Shown here in pieces: positions 35,282 to 40,397 of a stretch of 50,334 bases of DNA; the first letter of the stretch is position 1; every line of letters begins with the position of its first letter. The stretch comes from an uncultured Pelagibacteraceae bacterium. Lineage in GTDB: Bacteria > Pseudomonadota > Alphaproteobacteria > Pelagibacterales > Pelagibacteraceae. The notes under the pieces were generated by a model. That model saw nothing but the letters and a program-made list of their open reading frames with translations. It was not told where the DNA came from and searched no databases. A program made the translations under genes and the position numbers. The stretch is from NCBI GenBank assembly GCA_902524545.1, contig CABZDW010000009.1, positions 1-50,334 of the forward strand, read 5' to 3'.

Positions 35282-36048
35282 TGTACTTAAAAAACTATAA
35301 TTTAAAAAATAAAACTGCAGTCGTAACAGGAGCCGGTAAAGGAATTGGTAGAGCGTGTGCTATTGCTCTAGCTGAGGCTGGCGCAAACTTGATTATAATA
35401 AGTAGAACTAAAAAGGATTTAGACGAGGTTTCAAAAAAGATTAAAAAAATTAAGAGCAAATGTAAATCTTATGTTTGTGATATTACAAATTACAGTGAGA
35501 TTAAAGATATCATAAACAGACAATCGAAAATAGATATTCTAATCAATAACGCGGGTAATAATATTCCAGAACACTTTACAAAAGTTAAAACTAAAAATAT
35601 GGAATATATGGTGAAGATAAATACAATGGCAACTTTCAATTTAGCTCAATTGTGTGCGCTTAAAATGATCAAGTCTAAAAATAGAAAGAAAGTAACTGGT
35701 GTTATTGTTAATATGTCATCCCAAATGGGTCACGTTGGAGGTCCTATAAGAAGTGTTTACAACATGACAAAATTTGGTTTAGAAGGTTTAACAAAAGGAA
35801 TGTCGATTGACCTTGCTAAATATAACATCAGAGTAAATACCGTCTGTCCAACATTTGTTGTAACTCCTATGACAAGCAAGTTTTTAAAAAGTAAAAAATT
35901 TAAAAAAGAGGTTCTAGGAAATATTCCTTTAGGCAAATTTGCTGAACTTTCAGATGTGGCAAGTGCAGCTGTGTTTCTTGCTTCTGATGCAGCATCAATG
36001 ATTACTGGAACTTCTTTATTAGTTGATGGCGGATGGACTGCAAAATAA
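35278..36048 (+). CDS. Short-chain dehydrogenase/reductase (SDR)
   Basis: NAD(P)-dependent oxidoreductase of 256 aa. The cofactor motif TGAGKGIGRACAIAL is at about 17-31, followed by NNAGNNIPE, the serine in NMSSQMGHVGG, the catalytic YNMTK and the C-terminal VDGGWTAK end. The residues around NNAGN and the proton-relay NTMATFN are those of a functional classical SDR. Two Met codons in a row (35278 and 35281) leave the start open by one codon. It overlaps terC by 4 bp and the peptidase by 16 bp, in a tightly packed unit. The substrate is unknown. Confidence 0.87.
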   Translation: MMYLKNYNLKNKTAVVTGAGKGIGRACAIALAEAGANLIIISRTKKDLDEVSKKIKKIKSKCKSYVCDITNYSEIKDIINRQSKIDILINNAGNNIPEHFTKVKTKNMEYMVKINTMATFNLAQLCALKMIKSKNRKKVTGVIVNMSSQMGHVGGPIRSVYNMTKFGLEGLTKGMSIDLAKYNIRVNTVCPTFVVTPMTSKFLKSKKFKKEVLGNIPLGKFAELSDVASAAVFLASDAASMITGTSLLVDGGWTAK

Positions 36049-36836
36049 CACCAAGATTATTTTTTTTAATAATTTTTTTTATATCAACACATTTAAATGC
36101 TATTGAGTTTAAAGGAAAATTTTTACAAGGGCATTATATAATAGGAATAACTAATCCCTCTTCTAAAATAATTATAGATAAAAAGGAAGTGAAAGTTTCA
36201 AAGGATGGATATTTTGCTTTTGGTATAGATAGAGATAGAAAATTTGATGTAACTATTACAAAAATTACTAATGGAAAAAGTGAAAAGATTAGAAAAAAAG
36301 TTCTAAAAAGAAAATATAATATTCAAAGAATAGATGGATTAGAGGAAAGTAAAGTTACACCGCCTGAATCGGTTTATAAAAGAATAAAAGAGGAAAATAA
36401 TAAAATTGGTAAAGCTAGAGCAATTAATTCTGATTTACCTTTTTTTAAAAATCAGTTCATTATGCCTGTGAAGGGAATTATAAGTGGAGTATATGGAAGC
36501 CAGAGAATTCTTAATGGAAAACCTAAGTGGCCTCACTATGGGATTGATATAGCTGCCAAAAAAGGAACAATGATTATGTCATCTGCAACTGGAGTTGTGA
36601 CAATGGCGGAAGATGATCTTTATTATACAGGTGGTACAGTTATTATGGATCATGGACACGGAATTTCTACAATTTATTCTCATTTAGAGAGCGTGATGGT
36701 TTCTGTCGGCGATACAATTAATCAAGGAGATGTTATAGGTACAGTTGGTTCAACAGGAAGATCTACAGGTCCTCACTTAGATTTTAGAGTAAATTGGTTC
36801 CAAACTAGACTAGATCCAATGTCTTTATTAAATTAA
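36033..36836 (+). CDS. M23 family metallopeptidase (LytM domain), exported
   Basis: Predicted cell-wall endopeptidase or divisome-associated LytM factor of 267 aa. It has a signal peptide (about 1-23), an Ig-like N-terminal beta region, then the LytM domain (about 145-260). Metal-site positions are H168 and D172 (HYGID), H217 (SHLES) and H248 (GPHLD). The usual HxH is HxD here, Asp250 standing where the second His often sits. Some proteobacterial M23 proteins carry this variant, so activity may be retained or altered. It starts 16 bp inside the SDR gene. Confidence 0.85.
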   Translation: MDCKITPRLFFLIIFFISTHLNAIEFKGKFLQGHYIIGITNPSSKIIIDKKEVKVSKDGYFAFGIDRDRKFDVTITKITNGKSEKIRKKVLKRKYNIQRIDGLEESKVTPPESVYKRIKEENNKIGKARAINSDLPFFKNQFIMPVKGIISGVYGSQRILNGKPKWPHYGIDIAAKKGTMIMSSATGVVTMAEDDLYYTGGTVIMDHGHGISTIYSHLESVMVSVGDTINQGDVIGTVGSTGRSTGPHLDFRVNWFQTRLDPMSLLN

Positions 36837-36842
36837 ATATTA

Positions 36843-36998
36843 ATGTCTGTTAAAACTAAATTCAAAAATTTTGTATCAAAAAGTAGATGGGGTAAATACA
36901 TTTTAGTTGGAGGTTTTACTTTTTTTCTAATTAAAGGAATGGTGTGGCTAATAGTTTTTTTAATCGCTGGTTTTAGTTTGATAAATTTTGGATCATAA
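36843..36998 (+). CDS. Small hypothetical membrane protein (51 aa)
   Basis: A 51-codon ORF 6 bp after the M23 peptidase stop. The product starts with a basic part (MSVKTKFKNFVSKSRWGKYI), then LVGGFTFFLIKGMVWLIVFLIAGFSL, which gives one long or two short membrane segments, and ends NFGS. The balanced basic-then-hydrophobic pattern and close spacing within a plus-strand run support coding. The family is not recognised and the function is unknown. Confidence 0.65.
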   Translation: MSVKTKFKNFVSKSRWGKYILVGGFTFFLIKGMVWLIVFLIAGFSLINFGS

Positions 36999-37012
36999 AA
37001 TATAGTTCAAAT

Positions 37013-37441
37013 ATGGATTCAGAAAATCAAAATAATTTTGAATTTAAAGTTGCTGGTTTAACCATGGAAAAAATATCTGTTTATTATGGATTTTTTTTAA
37101 TTTTGTGGGGATTAATTGTAAGCTTTATTAGTGGGAGTGGATCATTTACATCATATATTCCATCTATTTTAGGAGTTCCAATTTTAATTTTTTCTTATCT
37201 ATCAATCAAATTTATTTCAAAGAAAAAAATGTTTATGCATATTGTAGTTTTGTTTGGATTAATAATTTTTTTAGGTGGTCTTGATTTTATAAGATCATTA
37301 GTAATTGGAAATGCTTTTGAAAATGTTTATGCAGATTTATCAAAAATGATGATGTTAATTACTGGTTTATTATTTACTTACCAGTGCATTAAATCATTTA
37401 TATATGCAAGAAAAATGAGAGAATTAGGAAATACAGAATGA
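37013..37441 (+). CDS. Hypothetical integral membrane protein (142 aa)
   Basis: A 142-aa protein with four predicted membrane segments (about 23-42, 50-66, 73-92 and 110-130) after a polar N terminus (MDSENQNNFEFKVAGLTMEK). A GGLDFIRSL loop precedes the last helix. The ORF is followed with a 4-bp overlap by the hydratase-like gene, so the two are probably co-translated. No catalytic motif or known family is evident. Confidence 0.75.
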   Translation: MDSENQNNFEFKVAGLTMEKISVYYGFFLILWGLIVSFISGSGSFTSYIPSILGVPILIFSYLSIKFISKKKMFMHIVVLFGLIIFLGGLDFIRSLVIGNAFENVYADLSKMMMLITGLLFTYQCIKSFIYARKMRELGNTE

Positions 37442-38208
37442 TTTCTCAATCAGAAAAAATAGCTAACAAATTAGTAAATGCTTTTCTCAAAAATAAAATA
37501 ATCGCGCCCTTACCAAAGAAATTTACCAAAAAACTAACTGAGGCCAACAAATTTAGAATGCTTTGTGAAAGTAAAGTAAAAAAACCAGTTATAGGTTTTA
37601 AGGCTGGTGGAACTGGAATACCAGTAATGAAAAAATTAAAAGAGAAAGAACCATTTTATGCATCAGTTTATAAAGATAATTTTTTAAAAAGTGGTAAGGG
37701 TGTAAAGATTAGTAGAGCTACTTTTGGAATTGAATTAGAGGTTTGCTATTTAATTAAAAAATCTTTTTTTAATTCTAAATCATCAGTCACAATGAAAAAT
37801 ATCACAAAATTTATATCTCATATGGCTCCTTGTATTGAGATTGTGGGTTATAGGCAGAGGAAAAAAGGAATTACCTCATTTGGAGATTTAAGTAGTGATT
37901 TTGGAGCTAATGTTAAATTTTTGATCGGTCAAAAGAAAAAATATAAGAAAATCAATATCGGAAATTTAAAGACGAATATTTTTAACAAAAAAACTAAACA
38001 AAATATAAATGGTAATACCAGTGCAGTTTTTATTAATCCATTGAACTCACTAAGATTTGTTTTAAATAAAATTAAAAAAGATAAGTTAACTTTGAATAAA
38101 AATTTTTATGTATTTACAGGATCTACTGTAGGGGTTGTTCCAATAGGTAAAGGCCTTTATACAGGAAAAATAGATAAATTAGGATCTGTAAAAACTATAA
38201 TTAGATAA
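37438..38208 (+). CDS. 2-keto-4-pentenoate hydratase/fumarylacetoacetase-fold protein
   Basis: A 256-aa protein of the 2-keto-4-pentenoate hydratase / oxaloacetate decarboxylase fold. Recognisable are PVIGFKAGGTG (compare GYKVGLT in the family), the EPFYASVYKDNFL segment, the metal-site GIELEVCYLI with two glutamates, and APCIEIVGYRQRK. The C-terminal FTGSTVGVVPIGKGLYTG lines up with the TGS...PVKAGD-like end. Members cleave or hydrate keto acids in aromatic or sugar breakdown. The sequence is divergent and lysine-rich, so the reaction is not known. It overlaps the previous membrane gene by 4 bp. Confidence 0.75.
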   Translation: MISQSEKIANKLVNAFLKNKIIAPLPKKFTKKLTEANKFRMLCESKVKKPVIGFKAGGTGIPVMKKLKEKEPFYASVYKDNFLKSGKGVKISRATFGIELEVCYLIKKSFFNSKSSVTMKNITKFISHMAPCIEIVGYRQRKKGITSFGDLSSDFGANVKFLIGQKKKYKKINIGNLKTNIFNKKTKQNINGNTSAVFINPLNSLRFVLNKIKKDKLTLNKNFYVFTGSTVGVVPIGKGLYTGKIDKLGSVKTIIR

Positions 38209-38211
38209 CAA

Positions 38212-38334
38212 GTGAAAACATTTATACTTTTAGTTTTGGTGGTTGTTGTTGTATGGGTATTGTTCAGACCTATTACTCAAAAAGAAATTGATAGATATAA
38301 TAATAAAGACAATAGAACTAACTTAGATTTATAA
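38212..38334 (+). CDS. Small hypothetical membrane protein (40 aa), GTG start
   Basis: A GTG-started ORF of 40 codons 3 bp after the hydratase-like stop. The product begins VKTFILLVLVVVVVWVLF, a clear single membrane anchor. A short charged tail follows, containing RPITQKEIDRYNNKDNR. It closes the plus-strand run; a promoter-like sequence for the next transcript begins 10 bp later. No family is recognised; the anchor-plus-tail shape and tight spacing are the only support. Confidence 0.5.
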   Translation: MKTFILLVLVVVVVWVLFRPITQKEIDRYNNKDNRTNLDL

Positions 38335-38343
38335 CAAAATCGA

Positions 38344-38372
38344 TTGCTTAACATTTATTTTTAAAGTAGATT
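38344..38372 (+). promoter_or_regulatory. Putative sigma70-type promoter
   Basis: TTGCTT (38344-38349) and TAGATT (38367-38372) are separated by exactly 17 bases. They match the bacterial housekeeping -35 and -10 consensus at 4 of 6 positions each. Transcription would start near 38380, just before the structured leader. Promoter-like boxes are common by chance in AT-rich DNA, so the call rests mainly on its fit with the GC-richer stretch that follows. Confidence 0.4.
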
Positions 38373-38455
38373 CTTTAAGCCATATCTCATGGTGAAAAAG
38401 AGGCCGATATCGCATCGGTTAAAAGCGAGTTTTGGAAAACTAACTAGGAGAGTGT

Positions 38456-38647
38456 ATGAAAAGAATGCACAGAATACTGAGTTTGTTCAGCCGAGGCTCA
38501 AGAAATGCAAGGCTAAACCAACTTATGTTTCGTAATGCAAAAACCGTAAGTGCTAACGATTACGGCACGAGTGGTTATTTAGTTAAGACAGGAAAAAATA
38601 GTGGAAAAGTCTTGGGACACATAAGAAGTCGGTCTAAAGTTATCTAA
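38456..38647 (+). CDS. Possible 63-aa basic protein
   Basis: A 63-codon ORF with the best Shine-Dalgarno site noticed in the window: AGGAG at 38446-38450, 5 bases before the ATG. The product is strongly basic (MKRMHRILSLFSRGSRNARL at the start, GHIRSRSKVI at the end) without a clear family. Against coding, 22 of 63 codons end in G or C, with rare codons such as CGA, CGG and ACG; neighbouring genes almost avoid these. The same stretch also carries perfect hairpins. It may be a real basic protein of foreign composition, or a chance frame in a structured RNA. Confidence 0.4.
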   Translation: MKRMHRILSLFSRGSRNARLNQLMFRNAKTVSANDYGTSGYLVKTGKNSGKVLGHIRSRSKVI

Positions 38648-38661
38648 GTTCACTGGGGTAT

Positions 38662-38686
38662 GGGGCACCTGGCAACAGAACGCCCC
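38662..38686 (+). repeat. 25-bp hairpin element, copy 1
   Basis: GGGGC and GCCCC arms enclose a 15-base loop containing CTGGCAACAGAAC. It is identical over 25 bases to copy 2 (39012-39036), and 21 of 25 bases match copy 3. It lies 14 bp past the stop of the 63-aa ORF and is followed by CTTT, so it can act as a terminator of the plus-strand transcript. Confidence 0.85.
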
Positions 38687-38795
38687 CTTTAAATTTAAAA
38701 ATCTAATAATTTATTACAATCACGTCTCATGTGACAATCATTAAATTTTAAAAATTTAAAATAATATTATTAATCTACAAAACAAAAGGACAATT

Positions 38796-39002
38796 ATGAA
38801 AAAAACTATATTATCAATCATGTTTGTAATGTTTGTAAGTTCAGCATTTGCTGGATCTTGCCCAATGATGACAAATAACATTGATGCAAAAATCGCCGAA
38901 GCACAAAAACTTCGTGACGCTGGAATGAAAGCTCACACTGATGGTGATCATGCAAAATCAGAGGAATTACTTAATAAAGCTCTAGAATTATTTAAAAGCT
39001 AA
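38796..39002 (+). CDS. Small exported protein (68 aa)
   Basis: A 68-aa product with a textbook signal peptide (MKKTILSIMFVMFVSSAFAG, cleavage near AFA-G). A short mature part follows, starting SCPMMTNNIDAKI and continuing as an amphipathic, TPR-like helical stretch (AQKLRDAGMKAHTDGDHAKS). AAGGA sits at a good distance upstream of the ATG. Histidines and the N-terminal Cys/Met cluster could bind metal, but this is guesswork. It is bracketed by two identical hairpin elements (copies 1 and 2), of which copy 2 starts 9 bp after the stop and probably terminates it. Confidence 0.75.
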   Translation: MKKTILSIMFVMFVSSAFAGSCPMMTNNIDAKIAEAQKLRDAGMKAHTDGDHAKSEELLNKALELFKS

Positions 39003-39011
39003 TTTTATTTA

Positions 39012-39036
39012 GGGGCACCTGGCAACAGAACGCCCC
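39012..39036 (+). repeat. 25-bp hairpin element, copy 2
   Basis: Identical over 25 bases to copy 1 (38662-38686), with the same GGGGC/GCCCC arms and loop. It lies between the convergent small secreted protein gene (ends 39002) and the porin-like gene (ends 39056), and so could serve as a bidirectional terminator. Confidence 0.85.
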
Positions 39037-39055
39037 TTCCTAAAATTTTTATTAT

Positions 39056-39667
39056 TTAAAACTTATATCTTAACGATATAGATTTGATTTTATTATCAAA
39101 CATATCGGGATTATATCTGCCACCTGCTGGTGTTGTTCCACTTCCTCCCTTTACTATACCGAATTCAGATTGTTTAAAAACTATTTCATAGTTTCCCATT
39201 CCATAACCTAAAATTATTTGGTGAGCAAAGTCTGTATTATCATTATCCTTGTCAAATGGATCACCACTAAATCTAGAGTTTGTGTCTACATTTGTATGAC
39301 CCAAGCCTAATCCAAGACCGGCTAATATATATCCATTAGAACTAAATTCAGATGTGTACATAATATTTTCCATTATTGAAAAAGTTGTAACATCAACACT
39401 TATTCTACGTTCTAATTTTTGAGTAACTTCTCCATAATAAGAAAACTCTGTTTCTAAAGCAAGGTTGCCTGATCTAGTTCCAAATCCATACGAGATAACC
39501 GAGCCTTCGTCATCTGAGTCTGCATCACCGTATGTGAACCCACCAATATCATGCGGATTGTCAGCAACGTTTTTAGTTAAACCCAGTGAACCATATCTAT
39601 AACTTTCACTATGCGCGTTTAAAGCAAAAATTAAACTTAAAAGGCTTATTGTTAAAATTTTTTTCAC
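39056..39667 (-). CDS. Outer-membrane beta-barrel protein (small porin-like)
   Basis: Exported beta-barrel protein. I place the start at the GTG at 39667, because AAGGA lies 7 bases upstream and the product then begins VKKILTISLLSLIFALNAHS, a clean signal peptide. The open frame extends 14 codons further to 39709. The mature protein of about 180 residues has alternating hydrophobic strands (for example SYRYGSLGLTKNV, GNLALETEFSYYGEV, GYILAGLGLGLGHTNV, NYEIVFKQSEFGI) and ends KSISLRYKF, with the C-terminal Phe typical of barrel insertion signals. It resembles small OmpA/opacity-like eight-strand barrels. The ligand or role is unknown. Confidence 0.8.
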   Translation of the reverse strand: MKKILTISLLSLIFALNAHSESYRYGSLGLTKNVADNPHDIGGFTYGDADSDDEGSVISYGFGTRSGNLALETEFSYYGEVTQKLERRISVDVTTFSIMENIMYTSEFSSNGYILAGLGLGLGHTNVDTNSRFSGDPFDKDNDNTDFAHQIILGYGMGNYEIVFKQSEFGIVKGGSGTTPAGGRYNPDMFDNKIKSISLRYKF

Positions 39668-39776
39668 AAGAAAATCCTTACACGGAAAATACACAGGAAT
39701 CATTCCCAATTTTCTAAAGTTTCTAGATAAGATTATATCAATTTTGTTGCTAGATAAGGTTTATAGAAGAAAGGTC

Positions 39777-39801
39777 TGGGAACGTGACAACAGAACGCCC
39801 C
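39777..39801 (+). repeat. 25-bp hairpin element, copy 3 (diverged)
   Basis: Matches copies 1 and 2 at 21 of 25 positions. The 14-base core CAACAGAACGCCCC is identical, while the 5' arm reads TGGGAACGTGA. A GGG/CCC stem remains. It abuts the 3' end of sodB (stop at 39804), so relative to sodB it is on the opposite strand from copies 1 and 2 relative to their genes. Confidence 0.75.
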
Positions 39802-39803
39802 CA

Positions 39804-40397
39804 TTAATCTAGTTGAGATTCAACAAATTCCCAATTAATCAATTTCTCGTAAAAGTTCTCTAAGTACTCAGGTCTTTTATTTTTGTAATCTACATAATAA
39901 GAATGTTCCCACACATCACATGCCAAAATAGGTTTCATATTTTGAATTAATGTATTCTCAGCATTAGGTGTTTTACTTATCACTAATTTACCACTGTTGA
40001 TTGATAACCAACACCACCCAGATCCGAATTGGGTAATACCTGCCTGTATAAATTGTTTTTTAAACTCATCAGTGCTACCAAAATCTACTTCAACTCTTTT
40101 TTTTAACTTTTCCGGCATTAAACCTCCACCTTTTGGTTTCATGCACTTCCAAAACATAATGTGGTTCCAGTGTTGACTGGCATTATTAAATATTCCAGCT
40201 TTAGCTTTATCTTTTGAGGAGTTAATAATAATTTCCTCTAAAGACATTTTGGACATTTCGGTATCTTTTATTAGATTATTTAAATTTGTTATGTATGTTT
40301 GGTGATGTTTTCCATGATGTAGATCAAGAGTTTCTTCAGACATTATTGGAGATAAAGCAGTTTTAGAGTAGTCTAATTTAGGCAGTTCAAATGACAT
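39804..40397 (-). CDS. sodB: Superoxide dismutase (Fe type)
   Basis: Cytoplasmic enzyme that converts superoxide to oxygen and hydrogen peroxide. The 197-aa product carries the metal ligands His27 (LDLHHGKHHQTY), His79 (NNASQHWNHIMFW), and Asp and His in CDVWEHSYYVDY (about residue 160). The Gln at 75 and the QFGSGWCWL segment are characteristic of iron rather than manganese enzymes; cambialistic use cannot be excluded. It ends one base from a hairpin element (copy 3). Its start region is an AT-rich gap of about 130 bp shared with the 3' end of xsc. Confidence 0.96.
   Translation of the reverse strand: MSFELPKLDYSKTALSPIMSEETLDLHHGKHHQTYITNLNNLIKDTEMSKMSLEEIIINSSKDKAKAGIFNNASQHWNHIMFWKCMKPKGGGLMPEKLKKRVEVDFGSTDEFKKQFIQAGITQFGSGWCWLSINSGKLVISKTPNAENTLIQNMKPILACDVWEHSYYVDYKNKRPEYLENFYEKLINWEFVESQLD

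Follow-up and report, generated by a model that had tools for sequence, protein, structure and literature searches.

Few cells in the ocean are as abundant as SAR11 bacteria (Pelagibacterales), which are known users of riboswitches. The type 1 glutamine riboswitch (RF01739, glnA leader) is, like the leader presented here, short and, at some loci, placed directly before ORFs of the type that we call p63 (see below), but our leader shows no match to it even at an E value of 10, and the helices differ. In cyanobacteria, the glutamine riboswitch controls the glutamine synthetase inactivating factor and other small proteins, according to the portions of the source covered here (PMC6316151). The Downstream-peptide motif, or glutamine riboswitch type 2 (RF01704), is followed by short ORFs that belong to no known family and is reported from cyanobacteria and marine samples, as far as the consulted sections of PMC2864571 describe it; our leader gives no match to its covariance model. 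Within SAR11, those parts of Meyer et al. (2009; PMC2704228) on P. ubique and of Stav et al. (2019; PMC6429828) on HIMB5 that were considered deal with motifs other than the tandem-pseudoknot leader, the nearest being the RS05825 candidate of the latter work.

The locus studied here lies in a stretch of 50,334 nucleotides (hereafter the window; contig CABZDW010000009.1, assembly GCA_902524545.1), which is a SAR11 contig from a genome of 1.06 Mb. It carries a leader RNA with two pseudoknots directly before the gene of a 63-aa basic protein, p63. We propose, with a probability of about 0.55, that the two form a cis-regulatory unit, in which the leader would be a ligand switch, most likely for glutamine or nitrogen, and p63 would act on nitrogen assimilation.

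Architecture of the leader and the p63 gene

An earlier note, made from the letters of the window, had singled out positions 38344–38690 as a GC-rich, hairpin-rich island, and both its sequence and its coordinates match the contig. The GC content is indeed higher, modestly so (0.398, compared to a window value of 0.316 and to 0.271 in 36000–38343), with equally GC-rich stretches of 347 nt making up 2.3% of all those in the window, and the ORF that it contains has more GC-ending codons than the 256-aa ORF upstream (GC3 of 0.344 vs 0.175). The island is, however, not the single distinct block that had been described, as leader (0.423), ORF (0.380), and 3′ element (0.605) each contribute to the GC contrast separately. 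The promoter-like start was not recovered, since in a consensus scan of 36800–40200 the interval from 37100 to 38786 is free of sigma-70-like sites on the plus strand, and the supposed terminator at 38655–38686 is absent from the list of an intrinsic-terminator scan and reproduces the 3′ end of tmRNA. Instead of a transcript of about 300 nt, the structured RNA amounts to only ~51 nt. An independent 300-nt structured RNA was rejected: the fold of the whole stretch has a z-score of -1.63, with 6 of 100 shuffles at least that stable, and the ORF is conserved as a protein. All three perfect hairpins that had been reported exist as exact inverted repeats (38404–38418, 38428–38441, and 38544–38565), but the last one is not conserved; it falls inside the ORF, and the corresponding stretch in the related loci L009 and L010 has a different sequence. 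The real signal had been overlooked, namely that two hairpin loops each pair just 3′ of their own stem, giving two pseudoknots.

The leader RNA (38378–38428, plus strand) is a block of ~51 nt that comparison of upstream sequences shows to be kept across families. It scores 66.6 bits with our model of the leader (R1), of which the window leader is itself a row. Pseudoknot 1 (38379–38403, plus strand) has its stem at 38379–38383/38389–38393 and its loop pairing between 38385–38388 (UCUC) and 38400–38403 (GAGG), and the latter covaries (UA/UG/CG and AU/UA). Pseudoknot 2 (38404–38428, plus strand) follows immediately, with its stem at 38404–38408/38414–38418 and its loop pairing between 38410–38413 (UCGC) and 38425–38428 (GCGA), and covaries both in the stem (CG/UA, GC/CG) and in the loop (CG/UA, UA/CG, AU/GC). 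Each of them is an H-type pseudoknot with a five-pair stem, in which the last four bases of the loop pair with four bases past the stem, an A-rich linker standing between. Further downstream, an A/U-rich hairpin (38428–38441, plus strand) separates pseudoknot 2 from the ribosome site; judging from the aligned copies, it is outside the leader core, because it appears in same-genus copies and is absent from those of the other family. The AGGAG ribosome-binding site claimed for the basic ORF is in place at 38446–38450 (plus strand), and lies ~9–20 nt 3′ of pseudoknot 2 in 25 leaders.

A search of all 4227 Rfam families gave no match for the leader (RT-18, at 14.6 bits and an E value of 8.3, is at chance level) and no score above the gathering cut-off anywhere in 38344–38690. 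The earlier view that no standard RNA class is present holds for the leader; the 3′ end of the island matches the 3′ end of tmRNA. We consider it almost certain that the leader is a functional cis-acting RNA. It might nevertheless be a passive structure that protects the 5′ end, spaces the ribosome, or responds to temperature with no specific ligand, a reading in line with the masking of the ribosome site not being conserved: among the 25 leaders there is no conserved masking helix, and the switching step is not visible. We find this rather improbable, given that loops and linkers are as conserved as stems (22 of 54 columns are invariant in 29 rows, the CCAT/ATGG stem letters being imposed by the pattern with which leaders were collected) and that the leader is swapped with a glutamine riboswitch elsewhere, which suggests sensing.

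The ORF at 38456–38647 (plus strand) is a protein-coding gene. Its product p63 is a 63-aa basic protein of unknown function with a pI of 12, as basic as had been claimed, and it has the core NGNGTSGYxxKxGxNxGKxLGH. Compared to its relative L009, dN is 0.23 and dS is 2.1, the latter near saturation. In a single-cell Pelagibacteraceae genome p63 is 97% identical to that of the window, and the 256-aa and 68-aa proteins are identical. Among 61 genomes, homologues were found at 68–70% identity in four of the same genus and at 45–52% in two of another family, together with one weaker case. A profile of six sequences extended the family to 216 of 297 Pelagibacterales genomes, many of the matches being weak and confined to the core, and to 344 of 382 candidate stretches in viral contigs, the best 80 of which were kept. 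The only family assigned is phrog_32989 of PHROGs, of unknown function, with E values of 4.6e-5 for the window protein and down to 2.2e-13 for viral forms; Pfam and NCBIfam gave nothing significant for p63 or its relatives, nor did a PDB sequence search with p63. The predicted structure is of low confidence (pLDDT 70, pTM 0.41), with a helix at residues 2–26 and then three strands. For one viral form (L289), the named relatives are hypothetical proteins at 38–50% identity in nine phage records, eight of which are from pelagiphages (e.g., HTVC019P or HTVC168P), while the window p63 itself found no match among named phage records. In two viral loci, L325 (874–1150, 1210–1398) and L356 (2598–2879, 3001–3129), a p63-type ORF is located just 3′ of a virus-encoded permuted tmRNA gene.

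Covariation and distribution of the leader

Leaders were collected with a loose pattern that imposed CCAT/ATGG in stem 1 and some of the partner letters of pseudoknot 1. It was matched by 26 distinct cores, of which 25 (all except L010) formed alignment A3, the source of model R1, so that A3 rows match the model by construction. For the covariation tests, the three rows whose pattern imposed the pairing of pseudoknot 2 (L389–L391) were removed, leaving the 22 distinct rows of A4, obtained via protein homology. A larger set of 29 rows (A6) adds L010, L271, and L276, which had been dropped earlier, and four leaders of p63 homologues located with R1 (L432, L433, L438, and L439). The divergent leaders of genus g8 (L372–L374, 14–24 bits) were kept out of the pair counts. 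In A4, 99.5% of 395 cells pair, compared to 90.1% after shuffling; 51 cells are changed on both sides, compared to 19.4; and the covariation score is 0.359, compared to 0.175, none of 500 shuffles being as high on any of the three, with at most 42.8% of cells paired in the slid controls. The values for A6 are similar, with 99.4% of 520 cells paired, 74 cells changed on both sides, and a covariation score of 0.383 (0.182 shuffled), again with 0 of 500 shuffles in each case and slid controls at or below 46.3%; helix 1 gains a double change in this set. Two other measures do not separate the fold from the shuffles. The number of pairs changed on both sides is seven in A4 (reached by 29 of 500 shuffles) and eight in A6 (reached by 9 of 500), and the number of further pair types is below the shuffled mean in both sets. 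Overall, covariation among homologous leaders came out in favor of the fold on three of five measures. Outside both alignments, pseudoknot 2 shows further double changes, GCC/GGC in L431 and CGCAU/AUGCG together with GUAC/GUAC in L447 and L448.

Across the 297 Pelagibacterales genomes, R1 gave 40 strong matches, one per genome, at 51.7–76.5 bits, the next one scoring 30.4 bits. For 38 of the 40, a p63 match lies directly downstream, which in the case of G238 has an internal stop. Fourteen of the matches are model rows that had been found through p63 in the first place; of the remaining 26, 24 adjoin p63. Below the strong matches, 27 places scored 22–30 bits, and none of the seven that were read is followed by a p63-type ORF. 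Even so, a score below 51.7 bits does not exclude a true relative, because a weak match at 24.1 bits in G513 precedes a p63 homologue (L373). In L372 and in this leader, both of genus g8, pseudoknot 1 persists with new loop pairs (AGUC/GACU and UGUC/GACA) and pseudoknot 2 differs.

The association extends to viruses. R1 matches were found at 8 of the 80 viral p63 loci (the best 80 of 344). Two RNA-pattern scans of viral contigs produced 22 stretches, of which 18 contain both pseudoknots as judged by eye; 17 of these are followed by a p63-type ORF and the other one is cut by the end of the contig, although 8 of the 18 contigs were already known via protein homology. Leader and gene are closely associated, and of the three readings offered by the earlier note (an undescribed regulatory RNA, a dual-function RNA, or a structured leader that governs a small basic protein) it is the third that gains support. 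What that note had set as evidence against a new RNA, i.e., a known Rfam class, a known protein family, or lack of both transcription and conservation, is not what we found: the leader is unmatched in Rfam and conserved across families, and the family of the protein, phrog_32989, has no known function.

The leader also precedes other genes. The two remaining strong matches belong to genus g5, and in the one that was read (G324) the downstream ORF encodes a basic protein of 48 aa with no family match. In a 289-genome sample of the class, there were five R1 matches: that of the window, one in genus g5, and three in family f10, from another order. The f10 leaders are followed by an ORF of a third kind, 39–41 aa long in the two that were read through. 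These tiny ORFs, i.e., the 48-aa one at ~1290 of L431 and those of 39–41 aa in L447, L448, and L449, have no significant family match. Such cases, in genus g5 and in three genomes of another order, weaken the tie of the leader to the function of one particular protein.

They also bear on a different reading, namely that the leader is a protein-binding operator, to whose pseudoknots p63 (or some other small protein) would attach so as to repress its own translation. Some phage proteins do repress their own translation via pseudoknot operators, p63 combines small size with a very basic character (pI 12), its family is common in viral contigs, and two look-alike modules would suit repeated protein binding. 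The same leader standing before dissimilar tiny ORFs (L431 in g5 and L447–L449 in f10) argues against self-regulation by p63, as does the presence of a metabolite riboswitch before p63 homologues in other lineages, and we regard the operator as unlikely, at around one chance in four.

Repeat M and the 3′ end of tmRNA

The 3′ element of the island, GGGGTATGGGGCACCTGGCAACAGAACGCCCC, is a copy of a repeat (M) located at 38655–38686 (plus strand), which is also the 3′ hairpin of the p63 gene. Rfam alignments of real tmRNA genes show that its right part is identical to the 3′ end of this gene in SAR11. Two more copies follow in the window on the plus strand, one at 39012–39036, after the gene of a 68-aa secreted peptide (38796–39002), and a degenerate one at 39778–39801, in the interval between an outer-membrane-protein gene and sodB. 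A tmRNA gene at this locus was considered and rejected: only the 3′ end matches, at 26.7 bits compared to a cut-off of 50, and ARAGORN finds none. The real tmRNA gene is on another contig (L005; L230), and elsewhere in the source genome three M copies stand in a row from the real tmRNA gene.

The repeat is widespread, with at least one copy of the exact sequence CAACAGAACGCCC in 241 of 300 genomes of the genus (0 for the reversed control), both at the tmRNA gene (L230, 7265–8542) and elsewhere (e.g., between pnp and fabI). Runs of M delimit units that are ~120–3000 bases long and carry from zero to five ORFs of at least 40 aa. As in ssrA islands, direct repeats of the ssrA 3′ end bound these units; the cargo, identified by eye from the sequence, includes secreted peptides, nucleases, and an acetyltransferase. 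The 68-aa peptide gene has M or degenerate M on its 3′ side in 9 of 10 contexts, a proportion biased by the fact that the contexts came mostly from loci fetched for M, and M also on its 5′ side in 5 of 10. A less biased view comes from the p63 copies of the genus, chosen by protein score (the best 30 plus four) regardless of M. Leaving aside a broken copy (L273), 14 of the 29 intact ones end in M and 15 in a hairpin of their own. Their right flanks fall into 13 clusters among the 14 copies with M and three among the 15 without, the left flanks into five and three, respectively. Because the right flanks are hypervariable beside it, M looks like an exchange point, a putative mobile-cassette junction of SAR11.

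One could then ask if the whole island is a tmRNA-derived or mobile-element remnant in which RNA structure is incidental. The match of its 3′ end to tmRNA (E value of 3.5e-6) and the 13 different right flanks among the 14 same-genus copies with M would fit. However, the 15 copies without M retain leader and ORF and carry their own GGGGCA...UGCCCC hairpin, and other families and viral contigs have leader and ORF with no adjoining M. For leader and ORF this explanation is largely refuted and we take it to be very improbable; it holds only for the 3′ repeat. Within the unit of leader and p63 that we propose, M would be a separate element, a tmRNA-derived junction for the exchange of neighboring DNA.

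The enzymatic side of such an exchange was sought near M, where no tyrosine recombinase (PF00589) was seen, these genes being, in the genomes that have both, on other contigs than M (the genomes are fragmented) or, in G012, which is a single contig, at a distance of 339 kb. A scan of IMG/VR for phage attachment sites with M returned, by eye, only virus-encoded tmRNA genes and unrelated chance matches. We also observed a class of M half sites of the form ...CTAAT...CCGGGCAAC (L230, 7265–7440; L238, ~5880; also L161, L163, and L245), those of L230 and L238 being preceded by repeats like ACAACGAAGT, which resemble the arm-type sites of tyrosine integrases. In genus g1, 25 of 37 genomes have a single modest-scoring tyrosine recombinase, mostly of ~325 aa (e.g., G000:C12:20749-21267), and in the sister family 18 of 24 genomes have two strong ones. 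A one-recombinase Xer system is possible in genus g1.

A candidate nitrogen switch and its place among known systems

The clue to a ligand comes from the RNAs that occupy the position of the leader in other p63 loci. RF01739 was detected in 2 of the 297 Pelagibacterales genomes, both from the sister genus g7 and both directly upstream of a p63 homologue, and in a further two genomes of g7, G395 and G384, it is the tandem pseudoknot that stands before p63. In viruses, RF01739 is directly upstream of the ORF in 9 of the 53 p63 loci scanned with Rfam. All nine are among the first 13 loci scanned, which were picked after their upstream sequences looked riboswitch-like; 40 further ones, taken in order except for L356, contained no RF01739, so that 9 of 53 is the fair count. 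A regex search recovers six of the nine loci and therefore undercounts. The eight viral p63 loci with R1, all of them scanned with Rfam, have no RF01739, nor do the five named phage p63 regions that were scanned. Still, p63 homologues with neither leader are the most common kind, at 63 of the 80 viral loci (53 of the 80 having been scanned with Rfam) and in 176 of the 216 Pelagibacterales genomes, many of these being weak paralogues.

Because RF01739 stands in the same place before relatives of p63, we infer by association that the leader may sense glutamine or a tightly linked nitrogen signal. We would give even odds to its being a ligand-binding switch. Glutamine is our best guess for the ligand, although a tentative one. 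As a pocket for a metabolite, a pseudoknot of 25 nt is small. In the mechanism that we envisage, the tandem H-type pseudoknot leader would control the gene directly downstream, that of the 63-aa basic protein, and it would probably do so at the level of translation, since it ends ~9–20 nt before the ribosome site. A small-molecule ligand, for which glutamine or a nitrogen signal closely tied to it is the likeliest candidate, would make the two look-alike pseudoknots form or tighten, and p63 would act on nitrogen assimilation, e.g., as an inhibitor of glutamine synthetase like the cyanobacterial inactivating factors. Taken to its most specific form, the leader could represent a third class of glutamine riboswitch, with two near-identical mini pseudoknots, perhaps cooperative, controlling a glutamine-synthetase-directed inhibitor common to SAR11 and marine viruses, which we put forward as a speculative idea, rather doubtful as it stands. 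An RNA that is supported by covariation, absent from Rfam, present also in marine viral contigs, and located where relatives have a glutamine riboswitch offers a direct hypothesis on the ligand, both for the RNA and for a widespread orphan protein family. If true, the regulation of nitrogen assimilation in streamlined marine bacteria would gain a new sensor, with the suggestion that viruses act on the same step.

The tandem-pseudoknot leader is apparently undescribed, being absent from Rfam and from the literature searched, a search with subscription journals and supplements outside its scope. Its architecture is shared by the STAXI motif (Weinberg et al., 2010), a pseudoknot tandemly repeated two or three times in the parts of that report considered here (PMC2864571), but the leader has no Rfam match to it, and the neighbors of STAXI given there are DNA-handling genes and not tiny ORFs. 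RS05825 of HIMB5 is also a leader just before the ribosome site, with a protein of unknown function downstream; in the consulted description it consists of three hairpins, P2 having an asymmetric internal loop, and lacks a pseudoknot, and it is by this description only that it is set apart from our leader (PMC6429828). As for repeat M, the ssrA islands of Dehalococcoides and the tRNA-repeat cassettes of Actinomarinales and Methylopumilus, as presented in the sections covered of PMC3146451, PMC7771536, and PMC10872708, are likewise gene units bounded by direct repeats of a tmRNA or tRNA 3′ end. The SAR11 repeat differs from them in that it also occurs behind ordinary genes at a distance from the tmRNA gene, in many cases with one copy per small gene.
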